Origin: Lachnospiraceae bacterium
GTDB taxonomy: Bacteria > Bacillota > Clostridia > Lachnospirales > Lachnospiraceae
Assembly (NCBI GenBank): GCA_017617395.1
Contig: JAFZWG010000090.1
Location: forward strand, 1 to 37,779
Reading direction: 5' to 3'
Length of the DNA: 37,779 bases
The notes under the pieces are model-generated. The model ran no database searches. It was not told the origin of the DNA and worked only from the letters and a program-made list of their open reading frames with translations. The stretch's first letter is position 1. Each line of letters starts with the position of its first letter. Shown piece by piece: positions 2 through 34,414 of this stretch. The position numbers were made by a program, and so were the translations under genes.

Positions 2-2074
2 GACTGGGAAGAGTATCGGCAGAAGTACATCTCTTTTATCTTCCAGGACTATAATATCATCGACAGCTTCACGGTTCTGCAGAACGTGGAGCTTGCTTTG
101 ATGTCCATCGCGGACCCGGCGGCGCGCAGAAAGCGCGCGATTGAGCTGATCGACCGTGTCGGGCTTCGAAGCCACATGCGCCACAAGGGAAGCCATCTCT
201 CCGGCGGCCAGAAGCAGCGCACCGTAATCGCGCGTGCGCTTGCGAAGGAGAGCCCGATCATCCTTGCGGACGAGCCGACCGGAAACCTCGATTCGGAGAC
301 TTCGAAGGAGATCATCGAGCTTCTTCGGGACGTGTCGAAGGACAAGCTTCTGATCGTCGTCACGCACAATTTCGATCAGGTCGAGGACGTTGCAACAAGG
401 CATATCCGCGTCTACGACGGAGCCATCGAGTCCGACCGCACCTTGGCGGAGACGGTGCCGGTGGAGAAGAAGGAGGAAGAGCCCGCGCCGACGGCTGTCA
501 AAGAGCGCCTTCGCACGATCTCGAACGGCTTTCTTCTCGGCAAATCCATCTTCCTTGCGAAGCCGAGGCTCAGTCTGTATCTCTGCCTTTTGATGATCAT
601 CGGCGCATCCGCGATCTTCTTTGTCACGGCATTTTGCGGTGACTTCCTAAACGCGTTCAAGAAAAACCGGTATTTCTGCTACGAGGAGGGACGCCTCGTC
701 TTCGTGCACTACACCGACGACCCGATCACCGACGAGGAGCTTGAGGAGCTTTCGAAGGAGCTCGGAGCCGTCCGTTCGGAGCATTATGACTATCTGTATG
801 ACGTCCGGATCAAGACGCTCGAGGGAAGCTGGAGTTATTCCGAGCTTGCCAAGAACGTCAAGACGACCGCAGAGGACGATATCGGCGTGTTTACGTGCAC
901 GTTCGGTCACGATTACGGAGAGCCGGACTTCGGCCGGTATCCGGAAAGTGAAGCCGAAGTCTTATTGTATCTGCCGTACTACTACAAGGATGTCATCACG
1001 GAGGAGAAGGCGAAGGACCTCATCATTGAGATCGGTGTTGCCAACTTCGCGGTCTCGGGCGTCAAATTCTACCCCGACAGCAGTCAGATTGCAAAGGCCG
1101 TGATGACCGAGGCGGGATTCCGCCGCGGCACCGCAGCGTATGCCCTCGATATCGGGTATATTGCATATGTGGAGGCATCGGAGTCGTTGATATTCGAAGC
1201 CGATCTGTTCGGACATCAGGATCTGAAATTCATGGTCGGAGATCACATGCCCGAGGGGACCATCTACATCGATGATTTCTACACGAGAGCAACCATGTTC
1301 CAAAGCAGCGAAGGCAATCTGAAATTCATGCTTCGCGCGTTTATGGACCTTAAGGGAACCAACAAAAATGCGAACCAGCATTTTGATTTCCGGGGGGATA
1401 CAAGTATGATCGGCATCGACGCCGAGAAATCGCTGGCCGAGTATGACGGTCTTATCGCCCCGAGCTTCAGACCGACGGAGGTTCGCGTGTACGTAAGTCC
1501 CGATATCGCCGAGCAGATGCTCTCCGAGGTCGGAGTGGCAAACTACTATCAGGCTAGTCTGTTCTTTAAGACCGACAAGGAGGCGAAGGAGGCCGCGGAG
1601 AAGCTCAATGCGAAGAAGTACGTGGCACTGACGGCGACGGACGCCTACAAGCCCAACGCCGGCGATCTGATCAGCCAGCTGGCCGCCGCGGCAGTGCAGT
1701 TTGCTTTGTGGATCATTGCCATTCTGTTCCTTGCATTTTTCATCAATCTGTGCAGCCACAGAGCCATCGGAGCGTTCCGCGATGACATGACCATCATGCG
1801 CTCCATGGGAATTCCGACGAAGGTTGTGCGGATCGGCATTTACGTGCGCATGTTCCTGGCGTTGCTTCCTGCATTTTTCGTGATTCCGGTGCTGTCGTAC
1901 TTCGTGTACCGCGTGCCGAAGCTTAATATGCGGCTATGGTATCTGCAACCGTGGCACTACGTGATCCTGTATATCGGACTTGTGCTGATCACGCTTCGCG
2001 TGACGCGCCTTCAGAGCCGTGCGCTGTTCGGCGTGAGTGTTAAGAAGTCTTTGAGAGGAGGTGCGGAAGTATGA
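2..2074 (+). CDS. ABC transporter ATPase-permease fusion, module copy A1 (5' end outside window)
   Basis: The reading frame is open from the first bases, so the gene starts upstream and its Walker A motif is missing here. Visible in order: Q-loop (FQDYN), signature LSGGQKQR, Walker B ILADEPTGNLD and the H-loop VTHN. Then comes a membrane helix at about 560-630 nt, an ectodomain of roughly 330 residues, and three C-terminal helices in an FtsX/MacB-type permease region (bases 1690-2010). This is the four-helix MacB (type VII) layout, in which ATP hydrolysis drives periplasmic or extracellular conformational work rather than classical transport. The stop overlaps the ATG of the next gene (ATGA), so the two are translationally coupled. 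The copy at 4936 has nearly the same ATPase (about 16 differences over about 143 aligned residues by eye) but a much more diverged ectodomain. The substrate is unknown; antimicrobial-peptide defence or envelope work are possibilities, not shown by the sequence. Confidence 0.9.
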   Translation, partial: DWEEYRQKYISFIFQDYNIIDSFTVLQNVELALMSIADPAARRKRAIELIDRVGLRSHMRHKGSHLSGGQKQRTVIARALAKESPIILADEPTGNLDSETSKEIIELLRDVSKDKLLIVVTHNFDQVEDVATRHIRVYDGAIESDRTLAETVPVEKKEEEPAPTAVKERLRTISNGFLLGKSIFLAKPRLSLYLCLLMIIGASAIFFVTAFCGDFLNAFKKNRYFCYEEGRLVFVHYTDDPITDEELEELSKELGAVRSEHYDYLYDVRIKTLEGSWSYSELAKNVKTTAEDDIGVFTCTFGHDYGEPDFGRYPESEAEVLLYLPYYYKDVITEEKAKDLIIEIGVANFAVSGVKFYPDSSQIAKAVMTEAGFRRGTAAYALDIGYIAYVEASESLIFEADLFGHQDLKFMVGDHMPEGTIYIDDFYTRATMFQSSEGNLKFMLRAFMDLKGTNKNANQHFDFRGDTSMIGIDAEKSLAEYDGLIAPSFRPTEVRVYVSPDIAEQMLSEVGVANYYQASLFFKTDKEAKEAAEKLNAKKYVALTATDAYKPNAGDLISQLAAAAVQFALWIIAILFLAFFINLCSHRAIGAFRDDMTIMRSMGIPTKVVRIGIYVRMFLALLPAFFVIPVLSYFVYRVPKLNMRLWYLQPWHYVILYIGLVLITLRVTRLQSRALFGVSVKKSLRGGAEV

Positions 2075-4917
2075 TTCGCGTATCTCATCTCAACAAGTTT
2101 TATAACCGCGGGAAGTCGAACGAAATTCACGTGTTAAACGACATCTCGCTCGAGCTGCCCGACAGCGGCATGGTCGCGATCTTCGGACCGAGCGGCTGCG
2201 GCAAGACAACACTTCTGAACGTCATCGGCGGCCTGGATAACGCGGGCAGCGGTGAGGTGAAAATCGATGATTCGGTGATGAGTGTTAACGATGCCGTCGT
2301 GCGAAATAAAGAGATTGGCGTCATTTTCCAGAATTACAGCTTAAACCGTGACGAGACGGTCGCGGAAAATGTATCCGACGCGCTTCGACTGTGCGGCATG
2401 GACGACGAGGAGGAGATTGCCAAACGTGTGACGGCGGCGCTTGCGGGCGTCGGCATGGAGAAGTACGCAAACCGTACTCCCGACACGCTCTCGGGCGGTC
2501 AGCAGCAGCGAGTGGCGATCGCGCGAGCCATCGTCAAGAACCCGCCGGTGATCCTTGCGGACGAGCCGACCGGAAACCTCGATGAAGCCAACACGATTCT
2601 TGTCATGGACATCTTAAAGGCGATGTCCAAGGACCGTCTGGTTCTTTTGGTCACGCACGAGGCGAACCTGGTCGACAGCTATTGTGACATTGTCGTTGAG
2701 CTCAAGGACGGTTCGATCGTAAACGTTCGCGAGAACGAGAATGCGACCGGTTACTACGCAAAAAAGAAAAATGAAATCTACCTGGGCGAGCTTGCGAAGG
2801 ACGACCTCGGCGATGCGAACGCGGAAGTGTCGTTCTACGGCGACACGCCGCAGGAGCCTGTGAAGCTGACTGTGGTGAACCAGGGAGGACGCATTTTCCT
2901 CAAGGTTCACACACCGAAGGTGACGATCCTCGACGATGCGAGCGAGGTCAAACTCTGTGAGGGCGTGTTCAGCGAGAAGGAGGAGCGGGAGCGTAAGGAG
3001 AAGGACATCGACATGTCCGAGCTGCCGCCGATCGAGGGGAAGGAGTACGGACGGCTGTTTAAGTTCAAGAACACCGTAAAGCGCGGCTTCACCTCAAATT
3101 ACCGCTCGATGATGCAGCGAAAGAGCAAGAAGCGCCTGAGCGCATGTCTTGCGTTGTTCGGAGCGGCAATCGTGTTTTTAACGGCGTATTGTTCGACCGG
3201 AATCCGCCAGAGAATCGAACTTCGCGAGCAGTACAACAACAATGTGTTCCTCTTGGCTGCGGGCACGCAGGATATCGCGCAGCGGATGATCGATGCGGCG
3301 AACGACCCGGCGTCCGGAATCGAGGACTTCTATGTCCGTTCAAGGATTGAGCCGACCCGGATCGGAGAGGACAGCGCCAAATTCCGCATGGCTTTGTTTG
3401 ACACTGCCGGCGTTTACGAGGGCGGTTTCAAGGCCGGTCTGTCGGTGGAGTCTCCTGTGACATTCCTGTCGGAGAAGAATGCAGCCGGTAAGACCGTGAT
3501 TGCCGGCCGCGTGACGGATCTCGCGGACAACGAGGTCGTGATCACCACGAAGGTTGCGGATAAGATTCTGCGGGATGTTCCGTACGAGTTCATCAAGAGT
3601 TACGAAAATGTGATCGGCATGATCTGCCGGTATGAGATCGGCGACCAGCTGATCACCACCTATGTCACGGGTGTTGTGGAGGATGAGGAGCCGACAGCGT
3701 ACGTTGCGACCAGAACGCTCGATTACATCTCCCTGTACAGCATGTTCGGCGTGTTTGACAACGTTGTGGATGACAAATTCGGCATGTTCGACCTCAAACC
3801 CGGCGAATGCGTCGTCGTCAGACTTCGCCCGACCAAGGGCGGTTACGAGTCGGTGGACTACTACGGAAACCAGTATGCGGACGACCATGATGCCGACAAA
3901 GATCCGGAGATTGCGGTCGGGGATGAGCTTGTCATCAACAATGTCTCCCTTCGCGTGAAAGAGTTTCAGCGGTATGATTATCCGAAGCAGGATGACATAC
4001 TGTTCCGAAACGGGTATACCGCCTGGGCGACGTTAACTCCCGAGCAGGAGAGCGCGGTCATGAATGAGTACTGGTTTGAATACTCGGAAACCGGCTTCCG
4101 GAGGAATCAGTTTGCTTACTCCTTCGAAAAACACTTTGACTTCGACCCGGGAAGGAATTACCCGAGCTGGCTGGATTCCATGACGAAGATGGTGATTGTT
4201 CACCCGGACGATTTCCACAAACTGGCCAGAACCATCGGACTGACCACAAGACGGGCGACCGGCTATTACCAGCTTGTGGAGGAGCCGGTGGACTTTAAGA
4301 CCGTGCTTCGGTATTCGCCGAGACTGTATGATTTTGACACGATGTTCTACCAGGTGTACTCGAACGATCCGGAGAAGACGGAAGCGTATCTCAAGGAGCA
4401 TTTTTCGGATGTGCCCAAGCCGATGCGCGGCGTGATGTACGAGGATCCGGAGTTCGTCTCGCAGACGATCTACACACCGCAGGATCGCTTTGACCGCTCA
4501 TTCGTGTCCCTTAGCGACAATGTCATCCAGCTGTTCTTCGTGTGGATCGGCGTCATCGTCTTGATGTGCATCTCGATGTATTTCATCATGCGCTCCACGG
4601 TGATGAGCCGCATGCGCGAGATTGGAATCTACCGTTCCATCGGTACATCGAAGAAAAATGTGGTGTTCCGTTTCGCGGTGGAGACCGGAATCGTGGTAAC
4701 CTTCAGCGTCATGCTCGGTTACCTTGCGGCATCCGCGATCGTCTGGTATATCCTAAGAAGCGGCGGTGCGGCTACGGCCTGGCTGTATTATCCGCTGTGG
4801 ATGGCATTGCTGATTATCGTTTTGTTGTATGTGATATGCATTCCGTGCGGTATCCTTCCGGTGCTTCGACTGATCCGGAAGACGCCGAGCGAGATTATGG
4901 CAAAATACGATATTTGA
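2071..4917 (+). CDS. ABC transporter ATPase-permease fusion, module copy B1
   Basis: 948-residue fusion protein. The N-terminal ATPase has Walker A GPSGCGKTT at residues 39-47, signature LSGGQQQR near 140, Walker B ILADEPTGNLD with the catalytic Asp-Glu at 164-165, and a VTHE H-loop. Between the ATPase and the first helix (about 356-377) lies an extra segment of about 120 residues, rich in beta-strand-like and charged stretches, which the A-type partner lacks. A large ectodomain follows, then three C-terminal helices (about 818-840, 865-895 and 904-930) with the FtsX-like MREIGIYRSIG segment. The start overlaps the stop of A1 by four bases and follows an AGAGGAGG ribosome binding site. The A/B pairing suggests that one A and one B chain form a heterodimer; this is inferred from gene order. 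The 12-base gap to the next module keeps the array in one transcript. Confidence 0.92.
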   Translation: MIRVSHLNKFYNRGKSNEIHVLNDISLELPDSGMVAIFGPSGCGKTTLLNVIGGLDNAGSGEVKIDDSVMSVNDAVVRNKEIGVIFQNYSLNRDETVAENVSDALRLCGMDDEEEIAKRVTAALAGVGMEKYANRTPDTLSGGQQQRVAIARAIVKNPPVILADEPTGNLDEANTILVMDILKAMSKDRLVLLVTHEANLVDSYCDIVVELKDGSIVNVRENENATGYYAKKKNEIYLGELAKDDLGDANAEVSFYGDTPQEPVKLTVVNQGGRIFLKVHTPKVTILDDASEVKLCEGVFSEKEERERKEKDIDMSELPPIEGKEYGRLFKFKNTVKRGFTSNYRSMMQRKSKKRLSACLALFGAAIVFLTAYCSTGIRQRIELREQYNNNVFLLAAGTQDIAQRMIDAANDPASGIEDFYVRSRIEPTRIGEDSAKFRMALFDTAGVYEGGFKAGLSVESPVTFLSEKNAAGKTVIAGRVTDLADNEVVITTKVADKILRDVPYEFIKSYENVIGMICRYEIGDQLITTYVTGVVEDEEPTAYVATRTLDYISLYSMFGVFDNVVDDKFGMFDLKPGECVVVRLRPTKGGYESVDYYGNQYADDHDADKDPEIAVGDELVINNVSLRVKEFQRYDYPKQDDILFRNGYTAWATLTPEQESAVMNEYWFEYSETGFRRNQFAYSFEKHFDFDPGRNYPSWLDSMTKMVIVHPDDFHKLARTIGLTTRRATGYYQLVEEPVDFKTVLRYSPRLYDFDTMFYQVYSNDPEKTEAYLKEHFSDVPKPMRGVMYEDPEFVSQTIYTPQDRFDRSFVSLSDNVIQLFFVWIGVIVLMCISMYFIMRSTVMSRMREIGIYRSIGTSKKNVVFRFAVETGIVVTFSVMLGYLAASAIVWYILRSGGAATAWLYYPLWMALLIIVLLYVICIPCGILPVLRLIRKTPSEIMAKYDI

Positions 4918-4935
4918 TGAAGGAGGAGAGTGCTC

Positions 4936-7247
4936 ATGGCATTTCTCAAACTGACCAACATCGGAAAGATTTATGTGTCCGAAGGGAATGTGAGCGTCGG
5001 TATCCGCGGGGTCAATCTGTCGTTTGACCTCGGGGAGTTTGTCGCCGTCACCGGTGCGTCCGGATCCGGCAAATCCACGCTTTTGAATGTCTTAAGCGGC
5101 ATGGACAGCTACGAGGAGGGCGAGCTCCTCATCGAGGGCAGTCCCACGTCTCACTACCTTCAGCCCGACTGGGAGGAGTACCGGCAGAAGTACATCTCCT
5201 TTATCTTTCAGGATTATAACATCATCGACAGCTTCACGGTTCTGCAGAACGTGGAGCTGGCCCTGATGACCATTCCGGACCCGGTGGCGCGCCGCAAGCG
5301 CGCCGTCGAGCTCATTGAGCGTGTGGGCCTTCGAAGCCACATGAAGCACAAGGGAAGCCAGCTCTCGGGCGGCCAGAAGCAGCGTACCGTCATCGCGCGT
5401 GCGCTTGCGAAGGACAGTCCGATCATCCTTGCGGACGAGCCGACCGGAAACCTGGACTCCGAGACCTCGAAGGAGATCGTGGAGCTGCTGCGGGAGGTTT
5501 CGAAGGACAAGCTTCTCATTATGGTCACCCACAACTTTGAACAGGTGGAGGATGTGGCCACAAGACACGTGCGGATCTTTGACGGCGCGGTGGAGTCCGA
5601 CCGGGTGCTTACCAAAACAAAGCCCGTGGAGAGAGAGACCGAGCCGGAGACGAAGAAGCGAAACGAGAGAGCGGAAAACCTCTCCAACGGCTTCCTTCTG
5701 GGGCGCTCGATCTTTTGCTCGAAGCCGCAGCTCAGCACCTTTTTGTGCCTGCTGATGCTGTTCGGCTCCTTCGCCGTGTTCTTTGCGACCACTTTCTGCG
5801 GGGATTTTACGAAAATGTTTCGCTCGTTCTATCTGTTCCGGAGGGAGCCGGGGCGTCTGGTTGTGGTGCACACCGAGGACCGGTCCTTTACGGACGAGGA
5901 GTGTGACAAACTGATGTCCGAAACCGGCGCGGAGCGGATCAGCCGGCTGGATTATATGTACGATATCAGCGTTGATGATCCGGCTCGTCTGCCGATGGCC
6001 CGCCTGGAGGAGGTCACCAGAGAGGACGCCGGAAAATACGTCTGTCTTCCGGTCTCGGATGTGGGAAGTTTAAGTCTGGGGCGCTACCCGGCGGCGAAGG
6101 ACGAGGTGCTTCTGTGCCTGCCGGTGTATTTTACGCCGCAGTTCGGAACGGACGCCATCGAGACAACGGAGCTTGATTTCTTCGGTTATTACTACAAGGT
6201 TGTCGGCATCAAGTACTACGCGGATGCGGAGAAAGAGGCCACGGCGCTGTTCACGGACGAGGGACTTGAGCTTGCTACGGTGATCTACGGCCTGTACGAG
6301 GGAGTCAGCGTAAAGGGCAACTGCATCGCGGACGGTACCGCGGTTCCGTTTACACTTCCGGAGGAGTACAGCAGCTCCTGGTTTGTCGTAAGCACCGAAA
6401 TCCCGGCGGACTCGATCTACATCGACAACGAGTTGATCAACATGAGTATTGACCAGTGTAAGGAGTTTTCCATAACGCTGTCGGCAAAGGCAAGATACGC
6501 CCGCGGAAACCTCTCTGAGGACGACTACGAAACCATGGAGCGGTATGAGGATCTGTTCTCTGTCGGCGAGAAGGAGGATCTGACGGAGACGGTCTTTACC
6601 AAGGAACGGATCGTCACGAAGAAGGGAGACTTCCGGGTCGCTGCTATGAAGCGGAGGCTTACGATCCTCATCGGCGAGGACGTGGCAAAGCATCTTATGG
6701 AGAAGGCGGTGGAAGGGGAGTATAACCAGATCAGTCTCTTCTTTAAGTCCGACCGTGCCGCAGCGAAAGCAGCGAAGAAATTAAACGGCAACGGCTATGT
6801 GGCACTCACGACGAAGGAGACCTATCGCCCCGGATTTATTGCAATGATCGAGTTGATCCTCGAATGTTTCCTGCTGGGTGTCGTGTGGTTCCTGATCGTG
6901 ACTTTCATTGCATTTTTCGTGAACCTCTGCAGCCACAAGACGGTGGAGGCGTTCCGGGACGATCTGACGATCATGCGCTCCATGGGTATTCCCGTGAAGG
7001 TCATCCGCATCGGAATCTACGTTCGTATGTTCCTTGCGCTCGTGCCTTCGTTCATTCTGATTCCGGTGGTGGCATACATCATCTACCACATTCCGACCTG
7101 GAACATGCGGCTTTATTACATTACGCCCTGGCACTATGTGTTCCTTTACCTCGGTATGATCTTCATCACGCTGCGCGTCACCAAGAAGCAGATCAAAAAC
7201 CTCTTCGCGGGCAGCGTCAAGAAGTCGCTGAAGGGAGGTGAGGACGC

Positions 7248-7251
<4 letters not shown>
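4936..7251 (+). CDS. ABC transporter ATPase-permease fusion, module copy A2
   Basis: 771 residues from the ATG at 4936. This start is preferred over a GTG six bases upstream because AGGAGGAG (4921-4928) sits 7 bases before the ATG and almost abuts the GTG. The ATPase is complete: Walker A GASGSGKST at 40-48, Q-loop Gln92, LSGGQ at 143-147, Walker B Asp167-Glu168 and H-loop His199. A first helix at about 268-290 is followed by an ectodomain of about 340 residues and three C-terminal helices (about 634-660, 699-720 and 732-750). The protein is collinear with A1. The ATPase and the C-terminal helices are closely similar between copies, while the ectodomains align only in patches (for example the ADSIYID-like segment and the SLFFK segment). 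It overlaps B2 by four bases (ATGA). MacB/FtsX family by architecture; substrate unknown. Confidence 0.92.
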
Positions 7252-10073
<2,822 letters not shown>

Positions 10074-28258: not shown

Positions 28259-30694
28259 ATGAAGAACTATGAACCCGGAATGATCGAGCCGAAATGGCAG
28301 AAGTATTGGCAGGAGCATGACACGTTCCACACCGATGTGTGGGATTTCAGCAAGCCCAAGTACTATGTGCTTGACATGTTCCCGTATCCGTCGGGCGTCG
28401 GCCTTCACGCGGGACATCCCGAAGGATATACCGCGACCGACATCATGTCGCGCATGAAGCGCATGCAGGGCTACAACGTGCTGCATCCGATGGGCTATGA
28501 TTCGTTCGGTCTGCCGGCGGAGCAGTATGCCGTGACCACAGGACATCATCCGAACGGATTTACGCAGGAGAACATTCGCACGTTCGGCAAGCAGCTTCGC
28601 GAGCTTGGCTTCGACTATGACTGGTCGAAGATGGTCGCGACCTCCGATCCGAAGTTTTATAAGTGGACGCAGTGGATCTTCAAACAGCTCTATCTCGCTG
28701 GTTACGCAAAATACATCGACATGCCGGTCAACTGGTGCGAGGAGCTGGGCACCGTGCTTTCGAACGACGAGGTCATCGACGGTAAGAGCGAGCGAGGCGG
28801 ATATCCGGTTGTCCGCAAGAATATGAAGCAGTGGGTGATCGACCAGCCCGCGTTTGCCGAGCAGCTTCTTGAGGGTCTGGAGACGCTCGACTGGCCGGAG
28901 TCCACGAAGCTTATGCAGCAGAACTGGATCGGTCGCTCGACCGGTGTCGAGGTGAAGTTCGACATCGTCGGCGGAGGGGATTTTTCGATCTTTACGACGT
29001 GTATCGAGACCATCTACGGTATCACGTTCATGGTGCTTGCACCGGACGGCGATATCGTAAAGACGCTTTTGGACCGCGTCGAGAACCGCGAGGAAGTGGA
29101 CGCTTACATCGCGGAGACGTTGAAGAAAAATGATATGGACCGCACCGAGCTCAACAAGACGAAGTCCGGCTGTGAGCTCAAGGGTGTTACGTGTATCAAC
29201 CCCGTAAACGGCAGAGAAGTGCGCATGTTCATCGGCGATTTCGTTCTTGCCAGCTACGGTACCGGTGCCGTCATGGCGGTGCCGTCGCACGATCAGCGTG
29301 ACTTCGAGTACGCGATCGCGCACAATATCGATATGATTCAGGTTATCGACGGCGACGAGAAGCTCGGCCATGTGGACGTGAGCGAGCATGCCTTTGAGAA
29401 GGGCGAGTACCTCGGCAAGGGCTATCGTCTGATCAACTCCGAGGAGTTCACGGGACTGACCGTGGAGGAGGCCAAGGAGGCCATCACCGCGAAGCTCGAG
29501 AAGATGGGCGTTGCCAAGAGAACCGTAAACTATCACTTCCGCGAGTGGATCTTCGCCCGCCAGAGATACTGGGGCGAGCCGGTGCCGGTTGTTCATACCG
29601 AGGACGGCAAGATCCATGTTCTGGACGATGACGAACTGCCGCTCGTATTGCCGGAGCTTGACGATTACAAGGGCAAGAACGGTCAGGCGCCTCTCGAGAA
29701 CGCTACCGAGTGGAAGCAGTACGACCACAACGGCGTGAAGGGCAAGAGAGAGACCTCGACGATGCCCGGCTCCGCTGGTTCGAGCTGGTATTTCCTTCGT
29801 TACATCGATCCCGACAATGACAAGCAGCTGGCGGATCCGGAGCTTCTTAAGCACTGGATGCCGGTTGACCTTTACATCGGTGGACCCGAGCATGCGGTAG
29901 GACATCTTATGTACAGCCGCATCTGGAACCGCTTCCTCTACGACAAGGGCATCGCACCGACGAAGGAGCCGTTCAAGAAGCTTGTTCACCAGGGCATGAT
30001 CCTCGGCTCAAACGGCATCAAGATGGGCAAGCGCTACCCCGAGTACGTTGTCAATCCGAGCGACATCGTTCGCGATTACGGCGCCGACACGCTTCGTCTG
30101 TACCTGATGTTCATGGGACCGTTGGAAGTCAGCAAGCCTTGGAGCAACTCCGGTGTCGAGGGTGCCAGAAAATTCCTTAACCGTGTTTGGAATTTCATCA
30201 CGAACCCGGAAAATATCACCGAGGAAGAGATGCCGTCGCTTGAGAAGGTATATCATCAGACCGTCAAGAAGGTGACGAGCGACTTCGAGAAGCTTGCATT
30301 TAACACGGCGATCAGCCAGATGATGATCTTCGTTAACGCCTGCTACAAGGAAGGCCGCTACACGAAGTCGTATGCGGAAGGCCTTGTGAAGATGCTTTCC
30401 TGCATCTGCCCGCACATCGGCGAGGAGCTCTGGAGCGAGCTCGGACACGAGGACACGATCTCGTTCGAGGCATGGCCGTCGTTCGAGGAGGACAAGACCA
30501 AGGAAGACACGATCGAGATTGCGGTTCAGGTCAACGGCAAGGTTCGCGGCAAGGTCAACGTCACCATGGAGGACGACGAGGACAGCGTTCTTGCGAAGGT
30601 GCAGGAATCCGACGCAGCGAAGTTCTTAACCGGAACCATCGTGAAGAAGATTTACGTCAAGGGCAAGATCTTTACGATCGTTGTAAAGCCGTAA
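28259..30694 (+). CDS. leuS: Leucyl-tRNA synthetase
   Basis: 811 residues, standard bacterial length; AAAGGAG precedes the ATG. It charges tRNA-Leu in the cytoplasm. The HIGH-type motif is PYPSGVGLHAGHPEGY near residues 42-57. The editing (CP1) domain lies between about 220 and 410, with the VMAVPSHDQRD stretch typical of its active site. The zinc-less CP core has FARQRYWGEPVP. The second catalytic motif is NGIKMGKRYPEYVVNPSD, so the usual KMSKS reads KMGKR, a variant I believe recurs in Lachnospiraceae-like LeuRS. The anticodon-binding domain and the C-terminal QVNGKVRGKV domain are complete. Ends with a strong terminator. Confidence 0.97.
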   Translation: MKNYEPGMIEPKWQKYWQEHDTFHTDVWDFSKPKYYVLDMFPYPSGVGLHAGHPEGYTATDIMSRMKRMQGYNVLHPMGYDSFGLPAEQYAVTTGHHPNGFTQENIRTFGKQLRELGFDYDWSKMVATSDPKFYKWTQWIFKQLYLAGYAKYIDMPVNWCEELGTVLSNDEVIDGKSERGGYPVVRKNMKQWVIDQPAFAEQLLEGLETLDWPESTKLMQQNWIGRSTGVEVKFDIVGGGDFSIFTTCIETIYGITFMVLAPDGDIVKTLLDRVENREEVDAYIAETLKKNDMDRTELNKTKSGCELKGVTCINPVNGREVRMFIGDFVLASYGTGAVMAVPSHDQRDFEYAIAHNIDMIQVIDGDEKLGHVDVSEHAFEKGEYLGKGYRLINSEEFTGLTVEEAKEAITAKLEKMGVAKRTVNYHFREWIFARQRYWGEPVPVVHTEDGKIHVLDDDELPLVLPELDDYKGKNGQAPLENATEWKQYDHNGVKGKRETSTMPGSAGSSWYFLRYIDPDNDKQLADPELLKHWMPVDLYIGGPEHAVGHLMYSRIWNRFLYDKGIAPTKEPFKKLVHQGMILGSNGIKMGKRYPEYVVNPSDIVRDYGADTLRLYLMFMGPLEVSKPWSNSGVEGARKFLNRVWNFITNPENITEEEMPSLEKVYHQTVKKVTSDFEKLAFNTAISQMMIFVNACYKEGRYTKSYAEGLVKMLSCICPHIGEELWSELGHEDTISFEAWPSFEEDKTKEDTIEIAVQVNGKVRGKVNVTMEDDEDSVLAKVQESDAAKFLTGTIVKKIYVKGKIFTIVVKP

Positions 30695-30727
30695 TTACTC
30701 AAACCGTTTCATAATTACTTATTGTGT

Positions 30728-30761
30728 AAGCCGCCGGGGTTGTATTCCGGCGGCTTTTTTG
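30728..30761 (+). terminator. Terminator after leuS
   Basis: A 10-bp perfect stem (AAGCCGCCGG / CCGGCGGCTT) with a 9-base loop, followed by a T-run. Confidence 0.93.
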
Positions 30762-30803
30762 TTATGCTCAAATCGAAGCATTCTGCCCGGGAGGTTTTAG
30801 ATA

Positions 30804-33800
30804 ATGAGACGAAAAATGCGAGCGAATCTTAAGGTGATGATGAAGCGCGTGACGGCGGTTATGCTGGCGATGATGCTGGCATATGCCGGGGTAGGTGCGC
30901 TCGGAAGCGCGGGAGTTGCGCGGGGTGCGTAAAGCGAAGACAATGCGAGCGAGGGCGACCTTGGCGTAACGGTGGCGATCATAGGCAGCCGAAATGCGGA
31001 CAGCTATGGCGTCGGGTCTGAAATTGAGTACGCGATAACCGTTATGAACACCGGAGAAAACGTGATCAGAATGATATCTATCAAGGACTCATTATCCGGT
31101 GAGACTGCGGGCATTGAACGTTTCGAGTCATTGGCGTGCAAGGAATTTGATATGCGCTATACCATCAAGCAGAGCGATGTCGATGCCGGCGTGTCCAGTC
31201 TGATAAAAAAGATAGAGGACAAAGAATACCTTACGGTTACATCGGCTCCGTATAAGAAAAGCATGTCAGGGTCCTTTAAGATTACGAGTACACCCGCGAA
31301 CGGTAAGTTCTACGTCCTGGGGGAAATGGTTACATACAAGTTAACTGCCGTAAACAACGGAGACGTTCCTTTGACGGACGTTCGTATATATGATGCCGTG
31401 ACTGGCGAACAATGGGGGGCAATAGATCTCAAGGTTGACGAAAGCATTGAAATAGCCGGACACTGGACTATTACGGAGGAAGACGTCACGAAGGGCAATT
31501 TTTTCGGCGAACCGGTCGGCGTAGCGATCGTCTCGGGCGGCGCGGGCGAAACACTGGAAAATGCATCCGAGAAGTCCATTGCAGGCATCGGAACCACCGC
31601 GATCAGTAAACCCAGGGAGCCGGGGAGAAACGAAGACCCGTGGATAGGAAACTACGTGTATTACGGAACCTATGACGGTAAGTCGGTTAAATACCGCGTG
31701 CTTGATCCGAACACCACTGAATACAGCGCGGCGGATGCAAACGGGAAGAAAGCACATACGATGCTGATGGACTGTGATACGATTCTGTTTAATCATAAAT
31801 TTGACCCGGATTTAAATGTGTGGTATCGTCCGGCGAATGAGGAGACAAATAGAGAGGAATTGTCCTGCGAGTTACGGGATTATCTGAATAAGGACTCAAA
31901 TGGCTTTTATTGTAAAATCGGAGTCTTTTCGGATGCTGAGAAAGCTGCGATTACAGCAAGTACAAAAACCGCATCTGAAAATGAAACTGTTTTCCATCTT
32001 CTTTCTCCTATGTTTGGAGATTACATTTTCCTGCTTTCCGCTCCTGAAATATCAGAAACTAAATATGGGTATTATTACGATTCAAGCGTTGTAAGCTGGT
32101 TGAAAACCGGTGACGGTTCGGACTCCCAGTCAGACTACTGGTGGCTGCGATCGACCCGGGATTATGGTTTTGATAATGTTTACAATGTGACTTCCGGAGG
32201 AAACATCGCGATTAAGAAATCAACTAACGAATACGGTGTCTCCCCCGCCTTCAACATCGACCTCTCCTCCGTCATCTTCGCAACGAAGATTAAGACGGTG
32301 TACGAGAAGTACGGTGAGTACAAGTTGACGGTGGTGGATAAGGACCTGCAGGTAGCGGCGCCAACCGGCGACGATGTCACGAGAGAAGACAACAAGGTCA
32401 CCATCGCATACAACCTCACAGGCGATAATGCGAGCAAGGCTACCCGCATGTCGGTGCTGATCCTCGACAGAGAGTTTGATCCCACCGACAAGAAGACAAC
32501 CATCCTGCAGTATGAGAAGCTCACGCTTGACAAAGAGACGCCTGCGGAGTCCGCAAAGGGAAGCTTCACGCTTGATACGAGCAACAGCAAGATCAAGGAC
32601 GGCAAATGGGGCGAGGACTTCTTCGTATACCTCCTGGCGGAGGACGAGAACGACGGCGTCCTGACCGATTACGCCAGTGCGCCGGTGCTCGTGGCCGAGC
32701 CGGGCGAGGCGCAGATAGACATATGGATCACAACACAGAGCACGCCGGAAAATAAGCAGTATTATGTCCTGGGTGAACAGGTCAAATATGAAATCATGCC
32801 CATCAACAACGGAACCGCAACAGCAAGAGACTTTTCAATCACAGACAAGCTGACCGGTGTGGTTTACGAACATTTCACTATTAAACCCGATTCCAGAGAA
32901 GCAATCAAGGTGAAATACACGATCACGGAAGCGGACGTCCTCGCGGGGAAAATAACCCTCGGTACAAGCATCACCGCGGATGAGGACATCGCCGGCAAAA
33001 TCGATGAGTTCGAGTTATGCACCGGCAAGCTCAAAGCGCCCGAGAGCCTCACCGCAGACCAGAAACCGACGGCAAATTCACCCCTCGCCGAGGACGGTTC
33101 CGACCAGCCCCTCGTGACCGCGCCGAAAGAGGAGCCCGAGGGCTACACGGTGGAGTACAGACTCGACGGGGAGACCTGGAGCAAAGAAATCCCCACCGGC
33201 AAGGAAGCCGGAAAATACACTGTAGCTGTGCGCTATAACGGCGGCGGGGTACGGGAGGATTTGCCGGGCGAGATCCTTGAGATTGTCATAAACGAGAAGC
33301 CGAAGACGCAGTACACGGTCATCTGGAAGGATGCGAACGGAGCGGAGCTCGACCGCAAGACCTACGAGGAAGGCCAGGCGGAGCCCGCCACGGAGAAGAA
33401 GCCTGCTAAGGCTGCGGACGACACGTATACATATACCTTCAGCGGTTGGGACGCGGGCACCGTGAGCGGCACCACGAAGACGTACGAGCCGAAATTCACG
33501 GCGATCCCGAAGAAAATGTACACGGCCGACGCCGGTGCGCTGACGCACACCTTAGGGACCGAAACGGACGCCACGATGCACATCAACCGCGCCATCGAGC
33601 CTGAGACGTGCTATGCACATTTTGCGGGCGAAGTCTACGTCGGCACCGTCAAGGCCTCGCGCGGCAAGGACTACACGGACGCCTCCGGCAGCACCGTCAT
33701 CACCCTGAAGGCCGCCTTCCTAAACACCCTCACCGAGGGCGACCACACCGTGCGCGTCGTCTTCGACGACGGCGAATACACCACGAAGCTTGCCATTGAG

Positions 33801-33965
33801 GCCGCTGCTGCGGTCACCGAGCCCGCGGAGGAGCCTGCCGAGGTTGTTGCGTCGCCTAAGACAGCTGATACCGGGTCAGTGGGCGTTTGGATGTTGGTAT
33901 TGGCGATTGCAGGCGGAATGGCGGTTGTAGGAGTGAGAGTGAGGAGACGGCGGGAGGCAGAGTAA
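30804..33965 (+). pseudogene. Surface-protein gene interrupted by an in-frame TAA after the signal peptide
   Basis: An ATG at 30804, with GGGAGG nine bases upstream, opens a 42-codon stretch: a basic N-region (MRRKMRANLKVMMKR), a hydrophobic core (VMLAMMLAYAGVGAL) and a GSAGVARGA cleavage region. Then TAA at 30930-30932 stops it. The same frame continues directly as SEDNASEGDLGVTVA and stays open for 1010 codons to 33965. One base change (for example CAA, GAA or AAA to TAA) would explain the break. There is no other disruption, so it is either a very recent nonsense mutation, a base error in the assembly, or stop-codon read-through. Without the signal peptide the rest could not be exported. 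Confidence 0.75.
30972..33965 (+). CDS. Large surface protein body: DUF11-like repeats, DUF6273-like domain, LPXTG-like anchor
   Basis: The intact 997-codon part of the interrupted gene; a GTG at 30972 is only a formal start without a ribosome binding site. Domains in order: two DUF11/CARDB-like beta-repeats (to about 210) with EIEYAITVMNTGENV and MVTYKLTAVNNGDVP; a DUF6273-like domain (about 215-430) with IGNYVYYGTYDG, DYWWLRSTRDYG and GVSPAFNIDLSSV; a beta-domain; a third DUF11-like repeat (about 578-680, EQVKYEIMPINNG); an InlB/Flg_new-like repeat (YTVIWKDANGAELD, FSGWDAG); another beta-domain; and a C-terminal SPKTADTGS, hydrophobic helix and RRRREAE tail, the layout of a sortase signal with TA instead of TG. 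Family numbers are from memory. The DUF6273-like part is clearly lower in GC than its flanks. Probable role: cell-wall-attached surface protein; ligand unknown. Confidence 0.75.
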   Translation: MAIIGSRNADSYGVGSEIEYAITVMNTGENVIRMISIKDSLSGETAGIERFESLACKEFDMRYTIKQSDVDAGVSSLIKKIEDKEYLTVTSAPYKKSMSGSFKITSTPANGKFYVLGEMVTYKLTAVNNGDVPLTDVRIYDAVTGEQWGAIDLKVDESIEIAGHWTITEEDVTKGNFFGEPVGVAIVSGGAGETLENASEKSIAGIGTTAISKPREPGRNEDPWIGNYVYYGTYDGKSVKYRVLDPNTTEYSAADANGKKAHTMLMDCDTILFNHKFDPDLNVWYRPANEETNREELSCELRDYLNKDSNGFYCKIGVFSDAEKAAITASTKTASENETVFHLLSPMFGDYIFLLSAPEISETKYGYYYDSSVVSWLKTGDGSDSQSDYWWLRSTRDYGFDNVYNVTSGGNIAIKKSTNEYGVSPAFNIDLSSVIFATKIKTVYEKYGEYKLTVVDKDLQVAAPTGDDVTREDNKVTIAYNLTGDNASKATRMSVLILDREFDPTDKKTTILQYEKLTLDKETPAESAKGSFTLDTSNSKIKDGKWGEDFFVYLLAEDENDGVLTDYASAPVLVAEPGEAQIDIWITTQSTPENKQYYVLGEQVKYEIMPINNGTATARDFSITDKLTGVVYEHFTIKPDSREAIKVKYTITEADVLAGKITLGTSITADEDIAGKIDEFELCTGKLKAPESLTADQKPTANSPLAEDGSDQPLVTAPKEEPEGYTVEYRLDGETWSKEIPTGKEAGKYTVAVRYNGGGVREDLPGEILEIVINEKPKTQYTVIWKDANGAELDRKTYEEGQAEPATEKKPAKAADDTYTYTFSGWDAGTVSGTTKTYEPKFTAIPKKMYTADAGALTHTLGTETDATMHINRAIEPETCYAHFAGEVYVGTVKASRGKDYTDASGSTVITLKAAFLNTLTEGDHTVRVVFDDGEYTTKLAIEAAAAVTEPAEEPAEVVASPKTADTGSVGVWMLVLAIAGGMAVVGVRVRRRREAE

Positions 33966-34027
33966 AAGATATAAACAAACGCGGAGAAAGACCGCAAAAC
34001 AACCCTGCGCGAAAAGGAGGTAACCGT

Positions 34028-34402
34028 ATGACTTTGCGATGTAAGATGTTGGGACACAAATGGGGAAAATACACACCCTGCCATTGTCAAAGATGTAAAG
34101 AGACCAGACATGAATTTGTCGGCTGCAAGTGCACCCGCTGCGGCCGTGTACAGCACGACTGGGAAGTAATCGAAGACAACGTCGAATTCATAACAAAACG
34201 CTGCAAGGCTTGCGGCGAGACCGAGAAAACAAAGAAGCCATGCGAGCATGATTGGGTGCTTGTTGAGAGCGGTGAGGTTGAGGCAGAATACAGCTATGAG
34301 TCTGGCAACCAGTTCCTTATTTCAGAGGGCGGACGTTTCCGCAAGTACGAGTGCAGCAAATGCAGTGCATCTAATTTGATCTGGGACGAGAAATGGTATT
34401 GA
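34028..34402 (+). CDS. Small cysteine-rich protein with zinc-ribbon-like CxxC pairs
   Basis: 124 residues from the ATG at 34028, with AAGGAGG 6 bases upstream; the frame extends upstream into the surface-protein gene and is not used. The sequence has repeated Cys-x-x-Cys pairs (CHCQRC, CKCTRC, CKAC, CSKC) each followed by basic or His-Asp-Trp segments (HKWGKY, HDWEVI, HDWVLV), the pattern of stacked zinc ribbons. No membrane segment or signal is visible. I do not recognise a named family or function. It lies 62 bases after the surface gene with its own ribosome binding site and a terminator behind, so it may share that transcript. Its base composition is lower in GC than most neighbours. Confidence 0.78.
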   Translation: MTLRCKMLGHKWGKYTPCHCQRCKETRHEFVGCKCTRCGRVQHDWEVIEDNVEFITKRCKACGETEKTKKPCEHDWVLVESGEVEAEYSYESGNQFLISEGGRFRKYECSKCSASNLIWDEKWY

Positions 34403-34414
34403 GATTAGGAGTAG

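Follow-up and report, generated by a model that had tools for sequence, protein, structure and literature searches.

A surface-protein gene interrupted directly behind its signal peptide, probably a young pseudogene, in a Lachnospiraceae bacterium

Introduction

In Listeria monocytogenes, the surface protein gene inlA occurs in natural nonsense forms, being interrupted by stop codons in some isolates and intact in others. InlA is a wall-anchored protein. More generally, the account of young bacterial pseudogenes outlined by Kuo and Ochman (2010, PMC2916853) joins recent inactivation to fast removal by deletion. A further described system concerns the DUF6273 domain: proteins that carry it are C-type-lectin-like, and some are hypermutated by diversity-generating retroelements in phages, as outlined in PMC10743442.

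Here we describe a locus in which a comparable interruption is found at an earlier position in the gene. The window is a stretch of 37,779 nucleotides (contig JAFZWG010000090.1) from the genome of a Lachnospiraceae bacterium, a draft of 2.34 Mb in 97 contigs that is 85% complete. An initial annotation had described a signal peptide with its own ribosome binding site, cut by a TAA at 30930-30932, with the same frame running on for 1010 codons into a cell-wall-type protein. It offered a very recent nonsense change, phase-like variation by point mutation, a base error and read-through as possible readings. Literature searches, by titles and abstract openings among the matches listed, found no published work on this locus.

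Results

The interrupted reading frame

All features of the locus lie on the plus strand. A Shine-Dalgarno-like site, GGGAGG (30789-30794), was read directly in the sequence upstream of an ATG at 30804. This ATG opens an ORF of 42 codons (30804..30929) with a basic n-region, a hydrophobic core and an ARGA end, called as a signal peptide from composition, hydropathy and inspection by eye. It is followed by the in-frame TAA (30930..30932) and then by the surface-protein frame (30933..33965), which comprises 1010 open codons plus a stop at 33963-33965. This frame has the same phase as the ATG and carries no second lesion over its 1010 codons. The initial description of the signal peptide, its ribosome binding site and the TAA thus proved exact to the base. 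An open run of this length is not due to chance, since in base shuffles of the same 3030 nt (n = 200) the longest open run averaged 99 codons and reached 209 at most.

The spacer between leuS and the surface gene contains a terminator-like hairpin (30728..30756) with a 13-pair stem followed by a T run; this was the only such hairpin found, against a mean of 0.4 in shuffles. A promoter scan over 30600-31100 found none. On the 3' side of the surface gene lies a small cysteine-rich ORF (34028..34402), which is kept in the related genome G002. At a distance from the locus, the window holds three large ABC-transporter ORFs in a row (2071-10073), and in two of them a single chain also carries FtsX-like permease domains.

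If the stop and sense states alternated reversibly by point mutation, as the proposal of phase-like variation holds, one would have a ready account of why the state of the locus differs among three species (see below). This reading is extremely improbable, because no repeat spans the stop, the genome holds no second copy of the signal peptide, and the state of G002 is a deletion. Repeats of at least 14 nt in 30695-34300 amount to three direct families and one inverted pair, none of them extending across the stop, and the longest mono- to trinucleotide run beside it is GGGG (judged by eye; the repeat search left out units of 1-3 bases). A search of the own genome for a second copy of the signal peptide gave none, and this part of the initial annotation found no support in the sequence.

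Identity of the long protein

With Pfam, the protein encoded after the stop matched DUF7507, DUF6273 and DUF11 well above the cut-offs and DUF7927 narrowly above, and NCBIfam identified a DUF11-type repeat. The DUF6273 domain is internal (31863-32261). These domain matches, together with a protein that is 93% identical in a sister genome, indicate that the frame after the stop is coding. The C-terminus consists of an SPKTA motif (found by eye), a hydrophobic stretch and a basic tail. Similar tails are found in six paralogues of the own genome, with SPKTA, SPKTG or APKTA in place of the classical sorting motif LPXTG. The genome also has four sortase matches, three of them above the Pfam cut-off. 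Given the sorting tail, the similar tails of the paralogues and the genomic sortases, the surface protein looks like a sortase substrate; the open frame, the domains and the tail agree with the earlier description of a cell-wall-type protein. A retroelement acting on the DUF6273 region was considered and rejected, as a DNA search with 31860-32270 revealed no second copy, e.g., a template repeat, in the own genome.

The frame also contains internal in-frame start codons, including GTG 31062 preceded by GGAG and ATG 31152 preceded by AGGA, both at usable spacing, from which ribosomes might re-initiate to give a signal-less intracellular protein with some function. We regard such a functional product as very unlikely: the Shine-Dalgarno matches are of four bases at best, and a protein that lacks an export signal yet retains a wall-sorting tail makes little sense. 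For another internal start, GTG 30972, no Shine-Dalgarno site was found.

Three states of the locus in related genomes

The nearest named relative found is the sister genome RUG12897 (G003), an uncultured Lachnospiraceae MAG; the RUG prefix marks rumen genomes. On its contig G003:C51, the surface gene likewise comes after leuS. The signal peptide is matched across 42 of 42 codons, with 35 of 42 residues identical, and the residues that follow the window's TAA are 93% identical, beginning with the first. In G003 no stop interrupts the frame between the start codon and the contig end, which lies 248 codons (245 of them aligned) beyond the place of the window's TAA. A copy thus exists whose frame is open over its whole readable length. 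The initial annotation had proposed looking for a sense codon at 30930-30932 in close strains, and G003, the one relative readable there, indeed has one.

In G002, the spacer, the start codon and the first 16 codons are joined directly, and in frame, to the gene's final residues. An overlap of 4 bases between the BLAST pieces places the deletion, of 3090 bases (1030 codons), between 4-base repeats (left copy 30849..30852, right copy 33939..33942); a scar of 23 codons is left. An insertion as the alternative to a deletion in G002 was rejected because the scar joins the signal-peptide start in frame to the gene's own end. On either side, G002 is close to the window: the C-terminus of leuS is 98% identical, and the small-ORF stretch (33963-34404) shows 97% DNA identity. 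Because the stop position is inside the deleted stretch, G002 cannot reveal whether the stop was present earlier. The premature TAA is thus not conserved, its place being taken by a sense codon in G003 and deleted in G002, and a single locus is found in three states: nonsense-cut in the window, open in G003 and deleted in G002. The loss of the gene by a microhomology deletion in G002 suggests that it is dispensable in this species group.

The surface gene or its scar follows leuS in 3 of 22 genomes of the genus, the own genome included. In 16 of the 22, luxS is found in the ~1.5 kb after leuS and the surface gene is absent, and the remaining three (G004, G011 and G018) have neither in that interval. 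The interval between leuS and luxS looks like an insertion hotspot. In G002 (contig C24; G002:C24:9283-9569), about 8.4 kb separate the small-ORF stretch from the luxS-side match. When the genus was searched with the first 250 residues after the stop, 9 of 22 genomes matched, but near-full-length matches of high identity came only from the own genome and G003, the rest being partial and 24-50% identical. Among 299 genomes of the family, drawn evenly, matches were limited to the own genome, G002 and one of 27 bases; G003 gave no match in this set and was probably not drawn. A search of viral contigs for further strains gave no match, and in a search of genome contigs the G003 contig was the only relative among 10 pattern matches.

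Divergence and exchange between species

The locus and its upstream neighbor differ in divergence. Between the window and G003, leuS differs at 221 of 2307 sites and at 190 of 769 third positions (NG86 dS 0.535, dN 0.018; YN00 dS 0.93). The gene after the stop differs at only 31 of 735 sites (4.2%), including 12 of 245 third positions (NG86 dS 0.069, dN 0.036; YN00 dS 0.061). With a dS of about 0.07 against 0.54, and leuS as the single upstream gene serving as yardstick, the segment has probably passed between the species by exchange since they split. The spacer differs from G003 at 8 of 109 sites. In comparison with G002, the end of leuS has 83 differences in 933 sites and the 462 bases 3' of the gene have 14. 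As a whole, the stretch 30695-34404, which covers the spacer, the surface gene and the small ORF, is closer to its counterparts in G003 and G002 than leuS is at third positions.

The limits of the exchanged segment are less clear. The signal peptide differs from G003 at 12 of 126 sites, overall as divergent as leuS, and its dS of 0.18 is between the leuS and post-stop values. Towards the end of leuS the boundary is blurred as well, with 0 differences from G003 in the 30 positions 30635-30664, and G002 and G003 differ from each other at 1 of 107 positions in 30485-30591. The pN/pS of the surface gene is 0.53, which is not significantly below 1 (Fisher p 0.12); constraint on this gene is weak or undetected, or the sample is too small.

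Decoding of the stop codon

Were enough ribosomes to read through the TAA for some full-length protein to be exported, the intact 1010-codon frame after the stop would be explained, as a frame free of second lesions is equally expected under read-through. The position is nevertheless a sense codon in G003, the one relative readable there, and none of 39 distinct tRNA genes found by ARAGORN in the 85%-complete genome has a stop-reading anticodon (TTA, CTA or TCA). Rfam also gave 39 tRNA matches; one truncated match at a contig end is outside the ARAGORN set, and ARAGORN in turn adds one proline tRNA. Furthermore, the leuS stop is TAA in the window and a different stop codon at the same place in G003 and G002, so TAA terminates translation here. 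After comparison of the tRNA genes and the leuS stop, nothing remained in favor of a reassignment of TAA. Read-through, as offered in the initial annotation, is therefore disfavored, and we consider it highly improbable.

Reliability and age of the stop

The stop could also be a consensus or assembly error of the draft, or one allele in a mixed population, in which case most cells would have an open gene. In short-read contigs with good coverage, isolated substitution errors seldom occur. A rough scan for a signal peptide followed by a stop and at least 300 open codons, covering the window and 14 stretches of the own genome (281,075 bases), gave three matches; the two others were dismissed by eye, one as resembling the interior of an ABC-type ATPase and the other as resembling a non-coding frame. 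No other case was thus judged real, and G002, which has lost this gene, demonstrates that its absence is tolerated; both points weigh against an artefact. Its credit comes from the state of the genome, an incomplete draft in many contigs, and from the small distance to the relative's gene after the stop, which can trouble assembly; the G003 contig itself ends within the gene. In addition, internal stops in assemblies are often errors, as outlined in PMC11017572. On balance, we regard an artefact as unlikely, with a base error as the strongest competitor of the reading preferred here.

The reading that we prefer is a recent nonsense substitution. Had the gene been unconstrained after the stop, 1010 codons free of additional lesions would be expected with a probability of 0.0013 if the window branch has 0.02 substitutions per site, 0.036 if it has 0.01, 0.19 for 0.005 and 0.72 for 0.001, in a model that assumes 0.1 indels per substitution, two thirds of them frameshifting. 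The absence of further lesions hence means that the stop is recent, that the base is wrong or that the frame is still used. The earlier argument that a long-dead gene would have gathered more lesions holds in principle, and its force depends on the assumed indel rate. Provided that the ancestor had the G003 state, the stop would have arisen after the two copies separated, and if the low post-stop dS reflects an exchange, it would postdate that event as well. With a stop where the one readable relative is open and no further lesions behind it, the locus looks like a recent nonsense pseudogene, and among the four options of the initial annotation the very recent nonsense change is the best supported.

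Discussion

The locus is likely to be a young pseudogene: a surface gene, probably exchanged between species, that a single nonsense substitution has silenced where the signal peptide gives way to the mature protein. We infer loss of function, a recent date, the exchange and dispensability of the gene from sequence comparisons. Translation would begin at 30804 and end at the TAA, yielding the 42-residue signal peptide. The 1010-residue wall protein would not be exported, and at most a little unexported protein may arise from the weak internal starts. Such a locus is more readily understood as everyday recent gene loss than as some concealed decoding mechanism, and its comparison of three states is unusually clear. 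The locus can be seen as a natural snapshot of surface-gene turnover after an apparent exchange between species. It also bears on annotation, which might report an unexported protein of 997 residues from GTG 30972 and miss the lesion.

A more far-reaching reading is that the surface protein spreads between species and is repeatedly and adaptively switched off. The stop at codon 43 and the G002 deletion from codon 17 both leave nothing mature to export, which would fit selection against the displayed protein, e.g., as a phage receptor or immune target. It was noticed after the fact that, of 400 stop-making single changes outside the stop codon, 10 are in the 42 signal-peptide codons. The two lesions are possibly not independent, and we consider adaptive loss doubtful. 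Were the repeated loss adaptive, this would make the protein a candidate target of phages or of immunity in this group of bacteria.

Compared with known systems, the surface protein shares its DUF6273 domain with the phage proteins targeted by retroelements (PMC10743442, as outlined there). The resemblance to the young pseudogenes outlined in PMC2916853 extends to the lesions, the window and G002 together having two kinds at one locus, although G002 is another species and its deletion may not have followed a stop. In its natural nonsense allele, with an open gene in a relative, the locus resembles inlA as that gene is described in outline. The inlA stops, however, leave a truncated InlA, whereas the stop described here leaves at most the signal peptide.
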